Shown piece by piece: positions 22,617 through 32,026 of a DNA stretch of 36,586 bases (its first letter is position 1; every line of letters begins with the position of its first letter). The notes under the pieces are model-generated. The model made no database searches, had not been told where the DNA came from, and saw only the letters and a program-made list of their open reading frames with translations. The stretch lies in contig PFUD01000110.1 of NCBI GenBank assembly GCA_002789915.1, forward strand, positions 1 through 36,586, written 5' to 3'. Position numbers and translations under genes: made by a program. The DNA comes from Comamonadaceae bacterium CG_4_9_14_3_um_filter_60_33 (GTDB taxonomy: Bacteria > Pseudomonadota > Gammaproteobacteria > Burkholderiales > Burkholderiaceae_C).

Positions 22617-22630
22617 TTGATTTGAATCAA
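22617..22630. promoter_or_regulatory. FNR/ANR box upstream of ccoN
   Basis: Perfect TTGAT-TTGA-ATCAA, 56 nt upstream of the ccoN ATG (22687). Confidence 0.88.
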
Positions 22631-27087: not shown

Positions 27088-27101
27088 TTGATCAACATCA
27101 A
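27088..27101. promoter_or_regulatory. FNR box upstream of hemN
   Basis: Perfect TTGAT-CAAC-ATCAA. CATATT at 27124..27129 lies where a -10 would fall if the box were centred at -41.5. Confidence 0.85.
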
Positions 27102-30224: not shown

Positions 30225-31442
30225 TCAGGGCGTTTGCAGCAGTTGGCGGATCAGCGGGCACAAAATCTGGATGACTTCATCGGCCTCGGCCTCGCTCATG
30301 ATCAAGGGCGGTACCAGACGGATCACGGTATCGGCAGTGACGCTGATCAACAGGCCGTTGTCTGCGCATTGCTGAACCAGCGTACCGCAGGGTTTGGCCA
30401 ACTCCACTCCAATCATCAGGCCCTGGCCTCGAATCTCGCGCACCGCACCGCTAGCCAGTTCAGCCGCGAGCGCTCGCGCCAAGCCTTGGTTCAGATGCGC
30501 ACCGACGCGCGCGGCGTTTTCAAGCAGCCCATCTTCCTCCATGATGCGAATGGTTTCTACCCCGGCGCGCATTGCCAGCGGGTTGCCGCCAAAGGTCGTG
30601 CCGTGGCTGCCAGGTTGAAAGATGTCAGCGGCTTTGAGGCCCGCCACTACCGCGCCCACCGGCACGCCGGAGCCCAGGCCTTTGGCCAATGGCATCACGT
30701 CGGGCACAATGCCCGCCCACTGGTGGGCAAACCACTTGCCGGTGCGTCCCATGCCGCACTGCACCTCATCGATCATCATCAGCCAGTCGCGCTGGTCGCA
30801 TAAGGCGCGCAGTTCGCGCAGGTAGTCAAGGTGCATCGGGTTGACGCCACCTTCACCCTGGATGGCTTCAAAAAATACCGCCACCACATTGGGGTTGTTG
30901 GCCGTGGCAACCTTGAGTGCCTCGATGTTATTGATCGGCACGCGAACAAAGCCTTCCACAAGCGGACCAAAACCTGCCTGAATTTTTGGGTTGCCAGTGG
31001 CACTCAAGGTGGCGATGGAGCGGCCATGAAAGGCCTTTTCATAAACCACAATTTCCGGTCGTTCGATGCCCTTGTCATGACCGAACTTGCGCGCCAGTTT
31101 CAAGGCGGCTTCATTGGCCTCGAGACCGGTGGAGCAGAAAAACACATTGGTCATGCCGGAGAGTTCCACCAGTTTTTTTGCCAGCGCTTCCTGGTTGGGA
31201 ATATGGTAATAGTTGCAACTGTGGATGATCTTGCTGATCTGGTCCTGTAGCGCAGGCACCAGCTTGGCATGGTTGTGGCCCAGCGTATTGACGGCAATGC
31301 CGCCCAGCGCGTCCAGATAGCAGTTACCGTTCACGTCCCAAACCCGACACCCCTGACCATGGCTGAGTGCAATGGGCAAGCGCCCGTAAGTGTTCATCAC
31401 ATGCGGAGAGCTGGCTTCGATCTTTGGACTGACGACGGGCAT
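30225..31442 (-). CDS. argD: Acetylornithine aminotransferase
   Basis: 'NTYGRLPIALSHGQGCRVWDVNGNCYLDALGGIAVNTLGH', 'LMMIDEVQCGMGRTGKWFAHQ', 'HGTTFGGNPLAMRAG'. Start ATG at 31442. Confidence 0.96.
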   Translation of the reverse strand: MPVVSPKIEASSPHVMNTYGRLPIALSHGQGCRVWDVNGNCYLDALGGIAVNTLGHNHAKLVPALQDQISKIIHSCNYYHIPNQEALAKKLVELSGMTNVFFCSTGLEANEAALKLARKFGHDKGIERPEIVVYEKAFHGRSIATLSATGNPKIQAGFGPLVEGFVRVPINNIEALKVATANNPNVVAVFFEAIQGEGGVNPMHLDYLRELRALCDQRDWLMMIDEVQCGMGRTGKWFAHQWAGIVPDVMPLAKGLGSGVPVGAVVAGLKAADIFQPGSHGTTFGGNPLAMRAGVETIRIMEEDGLLENAARVGAHLNQGLARALAAELASGAVREIRGQGLMIGVELAKPCGTLVQQCADNGLLISVTADTVIRLVPPLIMSEAEADEVIQILCPLIRQLLQTP

Positions 31443-31563
31443 GGTAAAAATCTTTCGAGAGCAACAACAAACAAAGCGGCCCAACGCAGGTTGGGCCGTT
31501 GAAAAGTGATTTTAGACCGATCAATTAGTGTGGCACCGATGGCGCGTCCGCTTTGACTTTTCC

Positions 31564-31577
31564 TTGATTTGAATCAG
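31564..31577. promoter_or_regulatory. FNR-like box in the argD/DUF3579 intergenic region
   Basis: TTGAT-TTGA-ATCAG, one mismatch to consensus and the same 13-nt core as the ccoN box. Confidence 0.6.
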
Positions 31578-31590
31578 CATAGCAGAAGCA

Positions 31591-31614
31591 CTTAAGTCTT
31601 GTATAAGACATAAG
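31591..31614. repeat. 24-bp imperfect palindrome, putative operator upstream of the DUF3579 gene
   Basis: CTTAAGTCTTGTATAAGACATAAG: 10 of 12 base pairs symmetrical. Contains a -10-like TATAAG at 31602..31607. Confidence 0.65.
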
Positions 31615-31678
31615 ATTCAGCTAGAATGCATGTTGCATCGCAATATCCGTGGTGCAAACTTAAAACAACCTCTACCCG

Positions 31679-32026
31679 ATGGTTAAACACACTTCAAAAA
31701 AAACATACATCCTGGGCCTCACCCACAGCGGGCGAGCTTTTCGTCCCAGCGACTGGGCCGAGCGACTGGCCGGCGTGATGAGCCAATTTCGTCCGGGAGG
31801 CGCACCCGTTGGTCGCCATTTGGCCTACTCGCCCTGGTGCATTCCCAGCAGCGTCAACAACGTGCGATGTGTGATCGTGCACGAAGACTTGCATGCCCAC
31901 AATGTCATGGCCTGGGACTTTGTGATGGGTTTTGCCAAAGACAATGAGTTGCAAGTGCATCATGGCACGCCACCCCATAACGCGCACCAACCACATCACA
32001 GCCATTCCCACCAGCGCCAAAGCTGA
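31679..32026 (+). CDS. DUF3579-like protein of unknown function
   Basis: 115 aa, 'KKTYILGLTHSGRAFRPSDWAERLAGVMSQFRPGGAPVGRHLAYSPWCIPSSVNNVRCVIVHEDLHAHNVMAWDFVMGFAKDNELQV', with a His-rich C-terminus. Confidence 0.83.
   Translation: MVKHTSKKTYILGLTHSGRAFRPSDWAERLAGVMSQFRPGGAPVGRHLAYSPWCIPSSVNNVRCVIVHEDLHAHNVMAWDFVMGFAKDNELQVHHGTPPHNAHQPHHSHSHQRQS

Follow-up and report, generated by a model that had tools for sequence, protein, structure and literature searches.

A 24-bp imperfect palindrome in the promoter of a DUF3579 gene is likely to be bound by the GntR/HutC-type regulator SdhR, whose gene adjoins mdh and the sdh genes. This would place DUF3579 in the SdhR regulon; a PhaR-type box at the transcription start may add repression by PhaR. 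The observed basis of this reading is motif identity, genome-wide co-occurrence, conservation and position. An initial annotation of the window (the whole stretch of 36,586 nucleotides that was analysed) had proposed that the gene is oxygen-activated by FNR and gated by a second dimeric regulator. The second regulator stands and, judged by motif and regulon evidence, is with high probability SdhR; oxygen activation by FNR was not borne out by the orthologous promoters. The downstream gene was correctly assigned to DUF3579, and the features of the locus are collected in Table 1.

Table 1. Features of the DUF3579 promoter region and adjoining genes, in positions of the window
Feature	Position	Strand	Basis or remark
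argD-type aminotransferase, divergent; alternative target	30225..31442	-	Aminotran_3, E 1.3e-112
FNR-like box TTGATTTGAATCAG, function doubtful	31564..31577	+	One mismatch to consensus; not conserved
SdhR operator (predicted), 24-bp imperfect palindrome	31591..31614	+	Two mismatches to SdhR motif; genome copies; conservation
Palindrome core TCTTGTATAAGA	31597-31608	+	Part of the 24-bp palindrome
Possible weak -35, TTGTAT, inside the palindrome	31599..31604	+	Read from sequence; 17 nt before TAGAAT
Probable -10 hexamer of the DUF3579 promoter, TAGAAT	31622..31627	+	TANAAT kept in most orthologs
PhaR/PhbF-type box TGTTGCATCGCAATA	31631..31645	+	Exact to TG[N]TGC[N]3GCAA; over the expected start at ~31634
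Leader hairpin TTGCATCGC-AATATCC-GTGGTGCAA	31633..31657	+	Single-sequence fold; overlaps the PhaR box
DUF3579 coding sequence	31679..32026	+	115 aa; PF12112, E 1.8e-34

The palindrome, CTTAAGTCTTGTATAAGACATAAG, lies 13 nt past the FNR-like box, as annotated, and pairs at 10 of its 12 symmetric positions. It is single-copy in the 36.6-kb window at ≤3 mismatches, and shuffles gave no match at all. A full-text literature search with its core TCTTATATAAGA led to the SdhR motif paper of Suvorova et al. (2015; PMC4494728), in which the GntR/HutC regulator SdhR, known from bacteria as a controller of the TCA and glyoxylate cycles, is assigned a "palindrome with additional symmetry TCTTATGTCTTATATAAGACATAAGA". 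Compared with the inner 24 bases of this motif, the window palindrome shows two mismatches.

Further copies of the palindrome in the same genome are found beside genes that fit this assignment. Searching the whole assembly (3.06 Mb) with the 13-mer TCTTATATAAGAC at ≤1 mismatch returned three loci only, namely, the sdhR/mdh divergon, aceA and the DUF3579 promoter. On contig C20, the copy has mdh on one side, followed by sdhC, and a divergent GntR-type gene on the other; on contig C100, aceA, the gene for isocitrate lyase, is preceded by a pair of copies at a spacing of 30 bp. The GntR-type protein encoded beside the C20 site harbors a GntR (PF00392) and a UTRA (PF07702) domain, as expected for HutC-type regulators, and by family, gene neighbourhood and motif it can be provisionally equated with the curated SdhR. 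Paired SdhR sites at exactly 30 bp, or about three helical turns, also precede aceA in three relatives, a spacing that suggests cooperative binding.

Within the family, the exact 12-bp core TCTTATATAAGA is present in 183 of 201 genomes, mostly in one to three copies each, while its reversed control gave isolated matches in a handful of them; the palindrome is thus far from a chance occurrence. Of 68 distinct family sites, a count that leaves out four further listed sites adjoining DUF3579 and recognised by their coordinates, 32 are in the sdhR-mdh divergon, and 22 precede aceA, six DUF3579, four acnB and one icd, the last two genes being named from translated sequence without a family search. 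The remaining three sites adjoin unrelated genes. Genes of the TCA and glyoxylate cycles (sdhR-mdh, aceA, acnB and icd) thereby account for 59 of the sites, and 65 of 68 flank one of these genes or DUF3579. To judge from site sequences and their gene context, the family sites make up a TCA/glyoxylate regulon of which DUF3579 is a regular member. It is the combination of the motif match, the three loci in the source genome, the conservation within the Comamonadaceae and these 65 sites on which we named the regulator SdhR.

Upstream of DUF3579 itself, a 14-bp core at ≤2 mismatches was found at a near-constant distance in 54 of 80 named relatives, a 12-bp core at ≤1 mismatch in 24 of 30 further family genomes, and the SdhR core in 24 of 29 congeners. 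In 400-bp control stretches, the best match to the 24-mer seldom had fewer than 10 mismatches. About one-quarter to one-third of the DUF3579 promoters of the family are without the SdhR core, and outside the family only 1 of 40 has it. In Acidovorax and relatives, the core before DUF3579 is flanked by C-G (CTCTTATATAAGAG) and not by G-C (GTCTTATATAAGAC), and at least one genome with the swapped flank keeps the usual one at its own sdhR-mdh site. A different palindrome, of the form GCATCACNGTGATGC, is located between argD and DUF3579 in many relatives, whether or not they have the SdhR core, and often beside TTGACA; it is absent from the window.

Since argD is divergent to DUF3579 and adjoins it in 78 of the 80 relatives, the palindrome could in principle serve argD instead, an alternative that had been raised from the start. 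The distance from the core to the start of DUF3579 has a median of 82 bp and a standard deviation of 14, whereas the distance from argD to the core varies far more (median 150 bp, standard deviation 37), and the core abuts the conserved -10 hexamer of DUF3579. Because the spacing is so much more constant toward DUF3579, we consider this gene the likelier target and regulation of argD alone through the palindrome highly improbable. The argD leader has a structure of its own on the minus strand, a terminator-like hairpin, CGGCCCAACCTGCGTTGGGCCG, at 31477-31498 that is followed by a T-rich stretch and lies downstream of a TAAAAT -10 (31509-31514). Its GTTGGGCC arm is present in many relatives too, and the hairpin is a possible attenuator.

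With regard to promoter anatomy, the initial annotation had taken the TATAAG of the palindrome for the -10 under an activator centred at -41.5. The downstream TAGAAT fits better: in most orthologs, a TANAAT hexamer stands a few bases past the palindrome (e.g., TCTTATATAAGATAGAAT) and is retained even in promoters without the palindrome, so that TAGAAT is the more likely -10 on comparative grounds, and TATAAG was rejected. With TAGAAT as -10, transcription is expected to start at about 31634, and the centres of the palindrome and the FNR-like box fall at about -31.5 and -63.5, respectively. The TTGTAT candidate matches TTGACA at three of six positions and is not among the elements listed by a promoter scan.

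The direction of control is read from position only. At DUF3579 and in several aceA promoters, where the core likewise lies beside a -10-like sequence, it falls between the -35 region and the -10, where repressors usually bind, and this position is why we take SdhR to repress DUF3579. HutC-type regulators are mostly repressors. SdhR might instead activate DUF3579: at mdh, the core is located directly upstream of a TTGAC -35, an activator-like position, and many DUF3579 promoters with the palindrome have no good -35. Given where the core sits at DUF3579 and how this class of regulators usually acts, we regard activation as unlikely. We infer that SdhR represses DUF3579 and aceA, while its role at mdh is possibly different.

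The FNR-like box was described as one mismatch off the consensus with the core of the ccoN site, and this is accurate. The box TTGATTTGAATCAG differs from TTGATNNNNATCAA at a single base, and its centre is identical to that of the perfect site at 22617. Taken alone, such a match is weaker evidence than the palindrome; the window, with 0.88 matches expected at ≤1 mismatch, holds seven. Perfect FNR-consensus sites occur in the window at 22617-22630 and 27088-27101, and these are the better FNR candidates. When orthologous promoters were compared, the palindrome core proved conserved and the FNR box did not: at ≤1 mismatch, it was absent from the 400 bp upstream of DUF3579 in all 80 family orthologs (0/80) and present in 3 of 29 congeners, the window included, against a shuffle expectation of 0.15 in what are related sequences. 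Of the two other congener boxes, one keeps the 33-bp distance from the palindrome that the window has, and one lies at 15 bp.

These data bear on the original proposal that FNR activates DUF3579 at low oxygen from this box while a second regulator gates the promoter. Some FNR/CRP-type activators do act from a centre near -63.5, and the box's resemblance to the perfect site and its recurrence at the same offset in a congener could be taken in favor of such control. On the other hand, the box is missing, at ≤1 mismatch, from all of the 80 family relatives compared and from 26 of 29 congeners, and the -41.5 geometry required TATAAG as the -10, which conservation does not back. We therefore judge low-oxygen activation from this site to be very unlikely and reject FNR as the likely main control of the promoter; a lineage-limited FNR input, as the congener sequences might indicate, would be a weak possibility.

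A second operator-like element, missed in the initial annotation, was found at the expected transcription start. The 13 bases TGTTGCATCGCAA at 31631-31643 fit TG[N]TGC[N]3GCAA, the motif of the PhaR-type regulator PhbF of Herbaspirillum seropedicae, which is supported by DNase footprinting (PMC3206438). Among 111 orthologous DUF3579 promoters, the tight core TGCNNYGCARCA is exact in 41, mostly beginning 11 to 13 bp after the start of the -10, and the reversed core occurs in none (0/111). Exact cores are found in 17 of 30 promoters without the SdhR core versus 24 of 81 with it. The window box has one mismatch to this tighter core of the relatives. In the source genome, TGNTGCNNNGCAAYA gave 27 strand-matches compared with two for its reversed control. 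They include tandem copies before two phasin genes (PF09361), a single copy before a PHB depolymerase gene (phaZ) and the DUF3579 promoter box; several others fall inside genes. The TTGTGC variant of the box was uninformative in this genome, with exact matches in or near unrelated genes. PhaR is encoded there as a protein with PF07879 and PF05233.

Thus, stacked operators do appear to be present at the promoter, as annotated, but the pair is more probably SdhR and PhaR. PhaR input to DUF3579 promoters is likely for the family as a whole and plausible for the promoter in the window. It is quite conceivable, though we lean against it, that in the source genome 31631-31645 is no PhaR operator and merely supplies the leader hairpin with its 5' arm: the box overlaps the hairpin predicted from 31633 to 31657 and deviates from the tighter core. 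Against this, it is exact to the footprinted motif, and the genome does encode PhaR. It also stands, with respect to the -10, where the box of relatives does; their cores are exact in many cases, and the control has no matches.

The hairpin itself may be the counterpart of a leader hairpin of relatives with a conserved G-YGAUC-C loop. NGATCC is present in the leader of 54 of 80 family promoters with the SdhR core and of 4 of 30 without it, and its reversed control in none. The flanks of the relatives' GATCC hairpin, the only form for which this was shown, covary, with 255 standard pairs over seven symmetric positions versus a shuffled maximum of 212, an excess that is only indicative because the shuffles disregard relatedness. 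The hairpin is essentially absent from the mdh and aceA leaders, in which the pentamer occurs in 1 of 32 and 2 of 23, respectively. Rfam returned nothing near threshold for the leader of the window or of seven relatives. Two observations serve as leads only: the loop GUGAUCC is complementary to GGAUCAC, a segment of the 16S 3' end, and the DUF3579 leaders have no evident Shine-Dalgarno sequence. A tentative and rather speculative extension would be that DUF3579 is an unrecognised carbon-flux protein made upon release of SdhR and PhaR, whose leader carries a new cis-acting hairpin with a G-YGAUC-C loop, conserved in the Comamonadaceae and controlling translation in the absence of a Shine-Dalgarno sequence.

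DUF3579 (PF12112) is frequent in the order (81 of 120 sampled genomes), and a solved structure of the family exists (2l9d); in the literature searched, no paper names DUF3579. A structure model built from 49 orthologs (pLDDT 80.7, pTM 0.72) has the secondary-structure order beta-alpha-beta-beta-alpha-beta, and 2l9d was its sole significant match in the fold comparison. Resemblances to ACT-, PII- and ferredoxin-like folds were weak (E > 0.1), and no function is assignable from the modeled fold. The protein of the source genome ends in a histidine-rich C-terminal tail, HHGTPPHNAHQPHHSHSHQRQS, encoded at 31956-32026, which is partly common to the closest relatives, is absent from most others and may bind metal.

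In the model that we favor, repression by SdhR and PhaR, we infer for DUF3579 the binding of SdhR, its effector and the direction of control. The regulon would comprise sdhR, mdh-sdh, aceA and DUF3579, with acnB and icd in some species. An SdhR dimer would cover the -35/spacer region of the TAGAAT promoter and keep DUF3579 repressed until a TCA-cycle- or acetyl-CoA-linked effector releases the promoter. PhaR, bound to the box at the transcription start, would act as a second brake, lifted when PHB granules take up PhaR, a mechanism described for phasin genes. Expression of DUF3579 would accordingly be expected while PHB accumulates and carbon passes the glyoxylate/TCA node. Control by SdhR and, in many species, PhaR would link DUF3579 with the TCA/glyoxylate-PHB node and suggests that a DUF3579 phenotype may appear in cells that grow on acetate or accumulate PHB. 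This reading redirects the earlier oxygen hypothesis for the gene.

Compared with known systems, the locus most resembles the SdhR system (PMC4494728), with which it shares the 24-bp palindrome with additional symmetry (two mismatches), TCA/glyoxylate-cycle genes beside the sites and a GntR-UTRA regulator beside one of them; it differs in its DUF3579 target, which the motif text of that paper does not mention. The PhbF/PhaR operator of H. seropedicae is matched in the exact motif fit and the promoter location, and the source genome has a PhaR protein and phasin targets; unlike there, the gene in the window is not a PHB gene, and its box departs from the relatives' tighter core at one base. With the FNR/ANR box TTGAT-N4-ATCA, the window shares 9 of 10 specified bases, but the box is unconserved in orthologous promoters and lies off -41.5 from the likely start.
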